From NCBI GenBank assembly GCA_016786595.1, contig JAEUWB010000026.1, positions 1-42,566 on the forward strand: DNA of 42,566 nt, written 5' to 3'. Of the stretch, positions 295 to 10,935 are shown one piece after another. This stretch comes from a bacterium. Its GTDB lineage: Bacteria; Bdellovibrionota_C; UBA2361; SZUA-149; JAEUWB01. Under the pieces are notes generated by a model. The model was not told the origin of the DNA. It worked only from the letters and a program-made list of their open reading frames with translations, and did no database searches. The position numbers were made by a program, and so were the translations under genes. How positions within the stretch are numbered: position 1 is the stretch's first letter; each line of letters opens with the position of its first letter.

Positions 295-921
295 TCAAGT
301 AACTTCACTTACCCACAACCAAATTTGTGGTACCAGTTTATCAACTGCCGTTTGGAACGCTTCTACAGCATACTTTGAAGACTTAGATTTAACCTCCTCT
401 TCTAAGTTAAACGACTTACTAGAAACGATTGAGTGCGTTTTTAAATTCACAAGCTGAGCGCGGACTTTCACTGAAATTTTCGAAGGACTAGTGTAAAGCA
501 AATGATGGAAGCGTTGTACTTCAAGCGCCAGCATATAATCTCCACGCGCTAAAACTGCTTCGGTCGTAATCGCCTTAACACGATTATTTTGTTCGAGGTA
601 ATTTGTAACAAGGCCAATCAGCTGCTTTGCTGGAGATTCAACCCAGCGCGCATATTGATAAGAACCTTCTTCCTGCTCGCTTTGTTGGGTTAAAATTTTC
701 TGCGAGCTCAAACTTGGGGACGTAGTTGCATCGCTAATAATTAAAATAATGTCATGTGCTTGGTTGGATTGAGATCGATCAGTCGTTTCTTTAATTGTTG
801 CCAGTCGATACAATCTTTCTTCATGTGTTTTTCCAAGTAACGAAGAACTGCATCCGCAAAAAATTATTAGGCAGCAAAAAATCAAACTAGTCTTGCTAAT
901 CAATGCTAGGGTGCTACGCAT
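295..921 (-). CDS. PqiC/YmbA-like ABC-transport auxiliary lipoprotein
   Basis: A 208-residue lipoprotein: a hydrophobic signal peptide ends in a lipobox-like Cys (FCGC, about residue 24), predicting an outer-membrane or periplasmic anchor. The body matches the ABC-type transport auxiliary lipoprotein pattern (PqiC/DUF330), including a [14 protein letters not shown] segment like the family's RW...P...L core. Family members partner MCE-domain lipid transporters, probably at the outer membrane. It is the last gene of the mla-type operon, 9 bases after the preceding reading frame. This operon thus uses a Pqi-type lipoprotein; no MlaA or MlaC is seen. The family call rests on motif resemblance and context. 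Confidence 0.75.
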
Positions 922-930
922 AAGTTTAAA

Positions 931-1218
931 TTACTCTCCTGGTCCCAAGTTCCCACGGGCTGGCCCAACAATTACCGAGCGTGGATTTTCAAAGCGCTCA
1001 GCCGCAGTTGAAACTTTAGCAGCAGCAACTGCCAACTCTCGAGTGAGTCCTCCAAGTTGCAAGGACAACACATCTGTCAGCCGCGCTAAGGACTCGACTA
1101 ATCCAGCTGACTGATTAACGATGCGATCGAGTCCTTCAACAGCACTAGCAACTTTTGCGCCGTCAATTTTGGAAAAAGTCTTATTCAGTGAATGCGCCGC
1201 CTGCTCCGTTTTGCCCAA
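931..1218 (-). CDS. C-terminal tail of MlaD, separated by an in-frame stop
   Basis: This 95-residue frame continues MlaD in the same reading frame. Only the TAA at 1237-1239 and six sense codons (G S I I A L) separate the two parts. The content is what follows an MCE domain in long MlaD proteins: a helical, Ala/Leu/Ser-rich segment ending in ENPRSVIVGP...GPGE, like the usual C-terminal signature. The only start-like codon is TTG at 1218, without a well-placed Shine-Dalgarno. It could be a reinitiated small protein, a readthrough extension, or the dead 3' part of a disrupted gene. I favour an interrupted gene. Confidence 0.6.
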   Translation of the reverse strand: MGKTEQAAHSLNKTFSKIDGAKVASAVEGLDRIVNQSAGLVESLARLTDVLSLQLGGLTRELAVAAAKVSTAAERFENPRSVIVGPARGNLGPGE

Positions 1219-1236
1219 AAGCGCGATGATTGAGCC

Positions 1237-1809
1237 TTATTTCTTGTTTAGTGCTTCAGAAAATTCTTTAATATTTGCTAACGTAAGACGAATGGAATCA
1301 CGGTTCTCTTCGGATAAGACTTCAGAGACAAAACGTCGAAGATCTTTGACTAAATCAGGAATAGTATCGGCGATTTCATCTAACCCGGTGCGTCCTTCGG
1401 CAATGATTGGGTGGCGTTCGCCAGGAAGTCGCTCTGTTAAAATGGATGCGTCCTGCTTGGCGTTACGGATATCAATGTATGCCAGGCCGGTGAGAAAGTT
1501 ACGTCGGATCACGGCTTCTGCACCTTGCTTAATTGGAATACCTCGTAAAACTCGAACTAATACGCGCACGCGTTCGACGTCATTATCAAGAATTGAAAAA
1601 TCCTCAACACTGCCAACCTTAATTCCCTTCATGGTTAGATCGCTATTTTTCTGCAAACCATCTAAAGTCTGATTACGAAAATAGACCGTATAAAAATTAT
1701 ATTCAGATTCAGGCTTATTGGTACCTAACCAAAAACCAAAAGCAGTTAAAAATACGCTAAGAGTAATGACAACTGCTCCAATTAAAGTGTAACGTGCTTC
1801 TGCATCCAT
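1237..1809 (-). CDS. mlaD: MlaD-family MCE-domain lipid transport protein (truncated by in-frame stop)
   Basis: Binds phospholipid in the periplasm as the substrate-carrying part of an Mla/MCE ABC transporter. The 190-residue product has one N-terminal membrane helix (about residues 10-30), then the MCE domain (about 38-115) and the start of a helical region. It begins with ATG two bases after the mlaF stop. The length matches the short E. coli MlaD, so the MCE core could work alone. However, the next 100 codons in the same frame still encode a typical MlaD tail, so the TAA at 1237-1239 looks like a nonsense change in a gene of about 292 codons. Confidence 0.85.
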   Translation of the reverse strand: MDAEARYTLIGAVVITLSVFLTAFGFWLGTNKPESEYNFYTVYFRNQTLDGLQKNSDLTMKGIKVGSVEDFSILDNDVERVRVLVRVLRGIPIKQGAEAVIRRNFLTGLAYIDIRNAKQDASILTERLPGERHPIIAEGRTGLDEIADTIPDLVKDLRRFVSEVLSEENRDSIRLTLANIKEFSEALNKK

Positions 1810-1811
1810 AT

Positions 1812-2603
1812 TTAGCTTATTCTTTTAGCATGCTGCTCAATTTGCCGCGAAGAAAAATACTCTTGAATCCACGGGTGCCGATCCTGCATCACCGCCGAAA
1901 CTGAACCATCGGCAACAACGACTCCTTGATCTAACACAATTACGCGGTCCGAAATAGAAATAATTGAGTCGAGGTCGTGCGTTACAATCATCACCGTCAA
2001 GCCCAGTGAACGCGAAAGCGTATAAATTAATTTATCAAAGGCACGAGCATTAATCGGATCTAAGCCAGAAGTTGGTTCATCTAAGAAAAGAAACTCAGGT
2101 TCGAGCGCCAATGCGCGGGCAAGTGCAGCTCGCTTACGCATCCCTCCAGAAAGCTCACTTGGCATTTTGCTACCATCTGATGCTTTTAGCCCAGCAAGCT
2201 CAAGCCGCAGCAAAGCAATTTGCTCAGCGATATTTTGCTCAAGCGGAAATTGCTCCCAGAATGGGACCAGCACGTTTTGCAATACTGTCAGCCCTGAAAA
2301 TAGTGCTCCGTGTTGGAACAGGACTCCAAAGCGCCGCCTTAAAGCATCAACCTCATCTTCGCTAGCTTGATATACATCGACGTCAAATAGCCTAATTGAT
2401 CCGGATGTTGGCTTGTGTAACCCAATAATTTCTCTTAATAAGGTAGACTTACCACAGCCACTTCCCCCAATTAATGAAACGATCGATCCGCGCTGGACTG
2501 CAAATGAAATGCCACGATGGACTTGAGTTTCTCCAAAATTAGTGTGAACCTCATCTACCGTTAAAACAACTTCCTGCTGAGTTGATAATCCAATCTTTGT
2601 CAT
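1812..2603 (-). CDS. mlaF: MlaF, ATP-binding subunit of the phospholipid ABC transporter
   Basis: A 263-residue ABC ATPase that powers lipid movement by the MlaE permease. All the elements are present: Walker A GGSGCGKST (46-54), Q-loop Gln97, signature LSGGM (151-155), Walker B FLFLDE (171-176) and switch His199. FQHGALFS after the Q-loop is typical of the MlaF/Ttg2A group. The gene sits 4 bases after mlaE and 2 before mlaD, so the subunits should be made together. ATG start. Confidence 0.93.
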   Translation of the reverse strand: MTKIGLSTQQEVVLTVDEVHTNFGETQVHRGISFAVQRGSIVSLIGGSGCGKSTLLREIIGLHKPTSGSIRLFDVDVYQASEDEVDALRRRFGVLFQHGALFSGLTVLQNVLVPFWEQFPLEQNIAEQIALLRLELAGLKASDGSKMPSELSGGMRKRAALARALALEPEFLFLDEPTSGLDPINARAFDKLIYTLSRSLGLTVMIVTHDLDSIISISDRVIVLDQGVVVADGSVSAVMQDRHPWIQEYFSSRQIEQHAKRIS

Positions 2604-2607
2604 TAAC

Positions 2608-3702
2608 TTAGATTCCTAACTCAACAAAAACTACGGCAAATAGTGCATCAAGTAGAATCACAGCCATCAAGCTTTCAACCACAGTTGCTGTCGTATTTAT
2701 CCCTACACTCTGCGCATTGCCTTCGACCATCAATCCGCGGCGACAGGCAATTAAAGCAATAAATGCTGCAAAGACTGGGGCCTTGAAAATTCCCACCAAA
2801 AAAGATCTAATCGGCAAGCGCACTTGCAGCCGATCAACGAATGTATATGGAGAAATGCCGAGCTTTGCTTCGGATACGGCAATACCTCCAATCAAGCCGA
2901 CAATATCGCCAATGAAAACAAGTAGCGGCAGACTAATCATTAGGGCAAAGAGTCGTGGAAAAATCAAAACCCGAAAGGGAGACAAGCCAAGTGTGCGCAT
3001 TGCATCAATTTCTTCATTAAGCTTCATTGTGCCAATCTGCGCGGTAAATGCTGAGCCTGAACGCCCTGCAACAATAATTGCAACAAGCACAGGTGAAAGT
3101 TCACGACAGAGTGAAATTGCAACCCCATCGACAATAAAAATGTTTGCTCCGTATCTTTCAATCTGTCCAGCAAATAAATAAGCAATCACCACCCCAATCA
3201 GTAGCATCATTAAAGCTACAATTGGCAACGCCCGCACACAGACATGTTCGAGCTGAACAAATAACTCTTTATAACGAAAGCGCAATGGCGTAAGACCAGT
3301 GCGCACAAAATTAACAACTGTTTCTCCAAAGAAAGCAAGGAACCGCTGAGTGTCCGCAGCAAGGTCTTCGGCTGCTTTACCCAAACGACCAAGAAAGCGC
3401 CTTTCTTCACCAAGCTTGGAGCGATCATCTCGCTTTTCTGCGGCTGCAACTAGCTCAATTAAGGCTCTGCTACTTGCTGTGAAGTTCTTCAGCTCGGCAT
3501 CAGGGAAGTGTCGTCTGAGGAGCAACGCTCCTGCAGTATCAAGAGTTTCTAAGTTTTGAGCATCAATCAGGACAGAGCTTAGCTTGGTACCTTTTAATGT
3601 TTGAGTTAGTGCTGCTGCATTCTTTAAATTCCATGCACCGTGGAGATGAACCACTTGCTGATTAAGGTCAGTAGTTTGAGAAAAAAATTCGTTACTGTTC
3701 AC
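2608..3702 (-). CDS. mlaE: MlaE-family permease with N-terminal STAS (MlaB-like) domain
   Basis: Inner-membrane permease of the lipid ABC transporter, 364 residues. Residues 1 to about 100 look like a STAS domain (the role of separate MlaB in E. coli), including an IDAQNLETLDTAGALLL-type strand-helix. Residues about 130-364 are the MlaE core with several hydrophobic helices and the conserved segment GRSGSAFTAQIGTMKLNEEI. The start is GTG at 3702, overlapping the end of the upstream small gene by 11 bases, which suggests translational coupling. STAS-MlaE fusions are common outside the gamma-proteobacteria. Confidence 0.92.
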   Translation of the reverse strand: MNSNEFFSQTTDLNQQVVHLHGAWNLKNAAALTQTLKGTKLSSVLIDAQNLETLDTAGALLLRRHFPDAELKNFTASSRALIELVAAAEKRDDRSKLGEERRFLGRLGKAAEDLAADTQRFLAFFGETVVNFVRTGLTPLRFRYKELFVQLEHVCVRALPIVALMMLLIGVVIAYLFAGQIERYGANIFIVDGVAISLCRELSPVLVAIIVAGRSGSAFTAQIGTMKLNEEIDAMRTLGLSPFRVLIFPRLFALMISLPLLVFIGDIVGLIGGIAVSEAKLGISPYTFVDRLQVRLPIRSFLVGIFKAPVFAAFIALIACRRGLMVEGNAQSVGINTTATVVESLMAVILLDALFAVVFVELGI

Positions 3703-6978: not shown

Positions 6979-7564
6979 GGATGAAGGACTGCCGGTGAAT
7001 CGTGCAAGGACCGAATTCTTCAATCCGTTGACAGTGTAGTGCAGTGCCATAGCCTTTATGCTTTTCAAATTCATACGCAGGATAACGTTCAGCAAATTTA
7101 CTCATCAAACGATCTCGCGTAACTTTTGCAAGAATCGAGGCAGCTGAAATAGCTGCAATCTGATCGTCCCCTTTTATTATCGGCTCTCCCAGGTATGATG
7201 TTGCCTGCTCAGGTAAGAAAAAATGGTTTCCATCAACTAAAAAATAGAGATTTACGTCGCGCAGGTGCTGGCTGAGCTTCTGAGCACAAAGCAACATCGC
7301 CAGCTTTGTTGCTTGTAAAATATTAAGCTTGTCGATGCGACGCGCTCCGATTGAAACAATTGTGTAGGCTAAAGCCGAATTCACTATTTCCGAGTAAAGT
7401 AATTCGCGTTTCTTTGGCGTAATTTTTTTTGAATCACGTAGCTCGTGATTGAGATAAGCCTTTGGAAGCACTACGGCAGCTGCCGTAACGGGGCCTGCCA
7501 GTGGGCCGCGACCTGCTTCATCTATTCCAGCAATCAAAAACGGCTTTGTCAGGTTTAAACACAT
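6896..7564 (-). CDS. rnhB: Ribonuclease HII
   Basis: Removes ribonucleotides and RNA primers from RNA-DNA hybrids. The catalytic acidic residues are visible: GIDEAGRGPLAGPV (Asp and Glu near residues 14-15), LVDGNHF, and KGDDQIAAISAASILAKVTRD. ATG start. After the usual end of the family (IHRQSF) the protein has about 28 extra residues rich in Arg and Gly, encoded in DNA that also encodes the start of yraN. This tail is probably non-essential. Confidence 0.94.
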   Translation of the reverse strand: MCLNLTKPFLIAGIDEAGRGPLAGPVTAAAVVLPKAYLNHELRDSKKITPKKRELLYSEIVNSALAYTIVSIGARRIDKLNILQATKLAMLLCAQKLSQHLRDVNLYFLVDGNHFFLPEQATSYLGEPIIKGDDQIAAISAASILAKVTRDRLMSKFAERYPAYEFEKHKGYGTALHCQRIEEFGPCTIHRQSFIRAIVSRKQGAWGTRREGGRALSTAPRL

Positions 7565-7628
7565 GCTTTTTCTTTAATTTTAACAAACAGCCCAGTTTCC
7601 TTGCTGAACTAGATCATAGTTTAGAAAA

Positions 7629-7656
7629 TTGTTATCAAAGCTGCACTACATATTCT
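7629..7656 (+). promoter_or_regulatory. Candidate sigma-70 promoter for gatCAB
   Basis: TTGTTA (7629-7634) and TATTCT (7651-7656) are separated by 16 bases, about 25 bases before the GTG start of gatC. A GAGG ribosome site follows at about 7671-7674. It sits in the 116-base gap between the divergent rnhB and gatC genes. Confidence 0.4.
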
Positions 7657-7680
7657 TTTATTTTTTAATGCGAGGTCAAA

Positions 7681-7968
7681 GTGAGTCTCTCTACTGCTGA
7701 AGTAAAACATATCGCAAAGCTTGCAGCCTTCAAGCTCAATGACGAGCAAATCGAACATATCAAAGGCGAATTAAATGCCATCCTTGACTATGTTGCACAG
7801 CTGCAAGAGGTGAACACTGAAGGAGTCCCGCCCACATCGCATGTGCACGGAGTCACAAATGTATTCCGCGAGGATGTTTCGCAGGAGTCCCTCCCAGTTG
7901 AAGCACTCGAGCGTAACGCTCCTGATTTTGCTGACGGTGGCTTCCGCGTACCTAAAATTATTGGTTAA
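7681..7968 (+). CDS. gatC: Asp/Glu-tRNA amidotransferase subunit C
   Basis: Small subunit that stabilises the GatCAB complex, which turns misacylated Glu-tRNA(Gln) or Asp-tRNA(Asn) into the correct Gln or Asn forms. The 95 residues show the family pattern: VKHIAKLAAFKLNDEQ at the N-terminus, a central ILDYVAQLQEVNTEGVPPTSH, and the C-terminal ending PDFADGGFRVPKIIG. Start is GTG with a GAGG site. First gene of a compact gatC-gatA-gatB operon. Confidence 0.96.
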   Translation: MSLSTAEVKHIAKLAAFKLNDEQIEHIKGELNAILDYVAQLQEVNTEGVPPTSHVHGVTNVFREDVSQESLPVEALERNAPDFADGGFRVPKIIG

Positions 7969-9498: not shown

Positions 9499-10935
9499 AT
9501 GACAACTGAATTTGAAACTGTAATTGGCTTAGAAGTACATGTGCAGTTAAAAACTGATAGTAAAATTTTTGCTGCTTCAGGGACAACAGCTGGACTTGCA
9601 CCAAATACTTTAACTGATCCTGTCACACTCGGCCTACCGGGCTGTTTGCCGGTATTGAATAAGCGTGCCGTCGAGTATGCAATTAAGCTTGGACTAGCTA
9701 CGAATTGCTCCATTGCCAAGCAGAGCATTTTTGCACGCAAACATTATCTCTACCCAGATTTGCCCAAAGGCTATCAAATTTCTCAGTATGAAGAGCCCAT
9801 TTGCACAAAAGGTTCACTTGAAATTTCTGTCGTTGATCAGAAAAAAACAATTGGGATCACACGCATCCATATGGAAGAAGATGCCGGAAAAAACGTGCAT
9901 CAAGACTATTCTGGCTACTCAATTGTCGACTTAAATCGAGCTGGAGTGCCGCTGCTCGAAGTAGTTTCTGAACCAGATCTTAGGTCATCAGCTGAAGCTG
10001 GTGCCTATATGCGACGGCTGCGACAAATTGTGCGTTACCTAGATGTATCGGATGGCAATATGGAAGAAGGAAGCCTGCGTTGCGACGCTAACGTTTCAGT
10101 GCGCTTACGGGGGACAAAAGAGTTCGGCACAAAAGTTGAAATTAAAAACATCAACTCATTTAAATTTGTTGAGCGCGCAATTGACTTTGAAGTCGCTCGT
10201 CAGATTGAGGCAATTAAAAATAATCAAGCAATTGTCCAGGAAACAAGACTTTGGGATGAAACTAAACAGGAAACTCGGACAATGCGCACCAAGGAATACG
10301 CGCAGGATTACCGCTATTTCCCAGACCCAGATCTTACCCCACTGGTGATCAGCGACAACTGGATTGAACGAGTGCGCGCAAGCTTGCCGGAACTACCTAC
10401 CCAGGTCTTTACGCGACTAAAGACAATGTATGGAATTGAAGACGACTTGGCAGAAATTCTTACGCAAGAACGGATGGTTGCGACATACTTTGATCAGGCA
10501 GTAGCCGCGCATCGCAATGCTCCGGCCTTGGCAAATTGGATCACCACTGAATTATTTGGGCGCCTGAATAAGGAAGGGATTAACTTTGAGGACAACCCTG
10601 TTAGCCCAGAAAACTTAGCTGGCTTAGTGCGCCTGATTGATGAAGGCATTATTTCTGGAAAAATCGCAAAAACAGTTTTTGATGAAATGTTCTTAACTGG
10701 AGCAGCACCAAATTCAATCGTTGATAAAAAGAACTTACGTCAAAATAGTAACGTCGGAGAGATTGAAAAAACAATTGATGCGATTTTAGCTGCCAATCAA
10801 GAGAATGTCAGTGCCTACCGTTCTGGCAAAACCAAGCTGTTTGGATTCTTTGTTGGGGAGATTATGAAGCAAACTCAAGGCAAAGCTAATCCAAAAGTCG
10901 TTAACGATATCTTGACCGCTAAGCTCAAGGGTTAA
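9499..10935 (+). CDS. gatB: Asp/Glu-tRNA amidotransferase subunit B
   Basis: Kinase/transamidase subunit that activates the misacylated tRNA-bound acid. The conserved opening ETVIGLEVHVQL starts right after ATG 9499, so this start is preferred; the open frame reaches back to 9439 inside gatA. Further marks are YYPDLPKGYQISQYEEP-like sequence, the RIHMEEDAGK segment and DLNRAGVPLLEVVSEPD. The C-terminal YqeY-type tail domain is present (about residues 330-478). Length 478 is normal. Confidence 0.97.
   Translation: MTTEFETVIGLEVHVQLKTDSKIFAASGTTAGLAPNTLTDPVTLGLPGCLPVLNKRAVEYAIKLGLATNCSIAKQSIFARKHYLYPDLPKGYQISQYEEPICTKGSLEISVVDQKKTIGITRIHMEEDAGKNVHQDYSGYSIVDLNRAGVPLLEVVSEPDLRSSAEAGAYMRRLRQIVRYLDVSDGNMEEGSLRCDANVSVRLRGTKEFGTKVEIKNINSFKFVERAIDFEVARQIEAIKNNQAIVQETRLWDETKQETRTMRTKEYAQDYRYFPDPDLTPLVISDNWIERVRASLPELPTQVFTRLKTMYGIEDDLAEILTQERMVATYFDQAVAAHRNAPALANWITTELFGRLNKEGINFEDNPVSPENLAGLVRLIDEGIISGKIAKTVFDEMFLTGAAPNSIVDKKNLRQNSNVGEIEKTIDAILAANQENVSAYRSGKTKLFGFFVGEIMKQTQGKANPKVVNDILTAKLKG

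Follow-up and report, generated by a model that had tools for sequence, protein, structure and literature searches.

The described system most similar to the locus studied here is the Mpc (Mla-Pqi chimeric) system of Brucella abortus, MpcEFDA, in which the long MpcD protein is modelled as a membrane-bridging needle and MpcA is PqiC-like (PMC12436622). The canonical Mla system (MlaFEDB plus MlaC) shares with our locus a homologous permease, a homologous ATPase, and the MCE domain, but it has a short MlaD, an MlaC shuttle, and no PqiC-like lipoprotein. PqiABC of E. coli is similar in that an MCE protein with a coiled-coil needle is combined with an octameric outer-membrane lipoprotein, whereas each of its MCE chains carries three MCE domains, and PqiA takes the place of the ABC transporter. 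The proposal for E. coli is that the PqiB needle ends in the ring formed by PqiC, a protein required for function (PMC10897342).

Gene content and order of the operon

The window (the whole stretch of DNA that was analyzed, 42,566 nt long) carries on its minus strand the order permease, ATPase, MCE protein, and PqiC-like lipoprotein, as in an Mpc-type operon. The MlaE-like permease (2608..3702, 364 aa) matched PF02405 (E 7.4e-70) and TIGR00056, the latter over its cut-off, and its N-terminus has about 120 extra residues with a weak STAS resemblance (STAS_2, E 0.13). The MlaF-like ABC ATPase (1812..2603) matched PF00005 (E 4.6e-33) and reached 180 bits against PRK11831 (MlaF), which is under the cut-off of that model. 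The last gene of the operon (295..921) encodes a PqiC-like outer-membrane lipoprotein (ABC_trans_aux; PF03886, E 1.4e-14; PDB 13hr chain A, E 9.6e-7). Coherently with the original prediction, in which the surrounding operon looked intact, these three genes are all whole. The same PDB entry, which contains an Mce/MlaD domain protein and an ABC auxiliary lipoprotein, also matches the head of the MCE protein (E 3.5e-17), while no match to the window's own tail was detectable by sequence.

Next to the lipoprotein gene, at 118-290 of the window, an exact copy of the 3' end of a tRNA-Ser gene (121-138) occurs at 225-242, and each of the two is followed by a 23-nt repeat (138-160 and 266-288). These repeats are possibly a duplication or an attachment-site scar.

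The locus shares with the Mpc system of Brucella abortus the order E-F-D-A, the ATPase, and the position of the PqiC-like lipoprotein as last gene (PMC12436622). The permease has an N-terminal extension in both, a STAS domain in Brucella abortus, and the MCE protein with a helical C-terminal half, 331 aa long in Brucella (PMC12436622), has its counterpart in the frames of 287-332 codons found in the relatives of our genome. Unlike in Brucella, which is another lineage, the D gene presents here a premature stop.

The MCE frame scored 44.3 bits against TIGR04430 (canonical MlaD), below the cut-off of 135, and mlaC is not beside the MCE gene: the PqiC-like lipoprotein comes next instead. All nine relatives inspected (9/9) have this gene order and an uninterrupted long MCE gene; a lipoprotein match was obtained in seven, while in an eighth the contig stops before that point and the ninth gave no match. 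A long MCE protein with a helical C-terminal half is thus seen in the relatives and in the frame past the stop, while the sequenced gene ends at residue 190; for this reason, we filed the operon as a disrupted copy of the Mpc type and not as an intact member. On these sequence comparisons, the interrupted gene is a predicted long needle-type MCE gene of an Mpc-type operon, and not a canonical mlaD.

A canonical cluster of mlaE, mlaF, mlaD, and mlaC, with an mlaD of 154 aa, is located elsewhere in the same genome (contig C58), whereas Brucella has no detectable MlaC (PMC12436622). In this cluster (L037, G000 contig C58, 305-4240), an L-asparaginase gene lies between mlaF and mlaD. L037 also has, at 7436-7873, a stand-alone protein of 145 aa that contains part of an MCE domain (PF02470, barely above the cut-off).

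The premature stop and the tail behind it

Reading the window from 880 to 1890, we found that the MCE/MlaD frame opens with an ATG at 1809 on the minus strand and is ended after 190 codons by a TAA at 1239-1237 (ORF 1237-1809). These N-terminal codons (1240..1809) encode a membrane anchor, the MCE domain (residues 40-115; PF02470, E 6.5e-12), and the start of a helical region, in which the stop falls. Past the TAA, the frame runs unshifted through 101 sense codons (934..1236), ending with ENPRSVIVGPARGNLGPGE, up to a stop at 933-931; the original prediction had estimated about 100 codons. It had also described a single in-frame TAA splitting an otherwise full-length mlaD: the stop and the frame were confirmed, whereas the mlaD label is too loose, as the TIGR04430 score is not that of a canonical mlaD. 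The span it gave, 1219-1239, includes the TAA and the next six codons, but the unit affected by the stop is 931-1809. A structure predicted for the read-through frame from the single sequence was set aside (mean pLDDT 38.8).

TAA is the stop of 14/27 genes of the window, nearly always with a further stop a few codons on. An alternative genetic code was ruled out, TAA being an ordinary stop of the genes of the window. A tail frame remained open by chance in only 16 of 2000 base-shuffled tails. From position 10935 of the window onward, the frame of gatB also stays open for 90 codons past its TAA; since the GatB domain is complete, this is probably a chance event.

The tail was then compared with 15 relatives belonging to the same order or class, the nearest being about 40% identical. 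In all 15, the alignment showed one uninterrupted frame of 287-332 codons with a homologous C-terminal tail, and the 101 codons of our tail, which correspond by homology to the coiled-coil tail in these proteins, align with their C-terminal half starting just after the stop. The column of the TAA is variable, with the residues D, R, T, R, D, Q, R, S, K, D, and S in the relatives. This alignment of relatives' mlaD, proposed in the original prediction, thus places a sense codon at the stop position, in agreement with a single nonsense codon interrupting a gene that is otherwise complete. Neither a split gene nor a conserved stop was found in any of the 15 relatives, and the retention of two separate genes, which had been named as evidence against that prediction, was likewise seen in 0/15.

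Compared with residue shuffles, the alignment of the tail with the relatives gave z 3.5 in the first 32 columns and 6.6 in the middle, two values that are somewhat too high owing to the fitting of the alignment, and 10.3 in the last 31 columns. A GPGE/LGPGE-type end is common to the tail and 14/15 relatives, usually surrounded by the longer motif P-[RGK]-x-x-[IL]-x-x-P...LGPGE. Furthermore, the ratio between tail and head identity is 0.65, inside the range of intact genes (0.61-0.70), and thus no relaxed constraint or decay is visible in the tail.

Origin of the stop codon

The explanation that we favor, and consider fairly probable, is a recent single-base nonsense change, either fixed or carried by some strains of the assembled population, which interrupts the MCE needle gene of the Mpc-type operon; here the base call at 1237-1239 rests on the assembly consensus, and the comparison genomes lie outside the genus and the family (a scan of the genome contig collection for a close relative returned one remote match only). 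We regard this as an ordinary explanation: a lone nonsense codon, or else a base error, in a single draft genome. A search of the literature for nonsense changes and readthrough in metagenome-assembled genomes gave no result.

A codon-usage scan for other in-frame split genes found none in 323 kb of this genome, and five candidates read as separate neighboring genes. This is the result of a redone scan, the earlier one having been uninformative owing to its poor background, and it is a soft statement because the sensitivity of the scan is limited: codon usage is weakly biased, and the gene studied here did not itself pass when the filter was applied to the first 25 codons of its tail.

The TAA could also be a wrong consensus base, due to a sequencing error or to a minority strain, while the gene of the organism is full-length. 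We consider this the less likely reading, though with an appreciable probability: it fits the absence of decay in the tail equally well, the draft genome is fragmented into 60 contigs, and exactly one disruption was seen. On the other hand, with no further in-frame disruption in 323 kb, the assembly does not look error-rich, and the TAA site is outside any long homopolymer.

It is improbable that the 190-residue protein represents an established short form, acting as an E. coli-type short MlaD with a dispensable tail. Its length is near that of E. coli MlaD (183 aa; PMC12436622) and its MCE domain is whole, but a short MlaD with MlaC is already present in the genome, the tail still appears constrained, the operon still encodes the PqiC-like partner that should bind the needle end, and the short form occurs in 0/15 relatives. 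We find quite improbable also that the lineage is now converting a periplasm-spanning needle MCE protein to a ring-only short form that still works with its lipoprotein.

Recoding, in which ribosomes would pass the stop and make a certain amount of full-length protein, appears very improbable. The tail stays open and resembles those of the relatives, as this would require; however, TAA is the commonest stop in the window, the relatives are without the stop, and the RNA structure 3' of it is not above shuffles (z +1.9 and +0.3), leaving the readthrough alternative of the original prediction with no structural support. The search for a suppressor tRNA covered the window alone.

Finally, the translation of the tail by itself, from TTG 1218 as earlier suggested or from another restart, is hardly credible: the TTG lies 18 bases past the stop, but no well-spaced Shine-Dalgarno was found (an AAGG about 16 nt upstream of TTG 1218 is too distant for normal initiation), the separate tail, having neither signal peptide nor membrane anchor, would stay in the cytoplasm, and 0/15 relatives have a split gene or a separate tail gene.

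Probable consequences for lipid transport and annotation

Needle-type MCE proteins are tube-shaped and believed to move lipids between the two bacterial membranes. If the stop derives from a nonsense change, translation would terminate at residue 190, and what is left of the protein would have the anchor and the MCE ring domain but little of the predicted coiled-coil needle and none of the conserved end. By analogy with PqiB-PqiC, such a protein would fail to reach the PqiC-like lipoprotein, and the bridge to the outer membrane would be lost; the lipid-transport system would, on the same analogy, probably be impaired by the truncation. The earlier idea of a truncated but working MlaD agrees with the complete MCE domain, but it is less likely than a loss of bridging, since what the stop removes is the predicted periplasm-spanning needle.

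The separate canonical Mla cluster could lessen the cost of this impairment. Moreover, three of 14 genomes of the same order gave no match to the gene (one of these is 92% complete, and some are incomplete), which suggests that the MCE needle system can be lost and fits its being dispensable.

As regards annotation, automatic pipelines would call a 190-aa "MlaD" at this locus, missing the disrupted long MCE needle protein of an Mpc-like operon. Of mild wider interest is the presence of Mpc-like operons in the order and class of this genome, where the operon occurs beside a full Mla cluster in the same genome.
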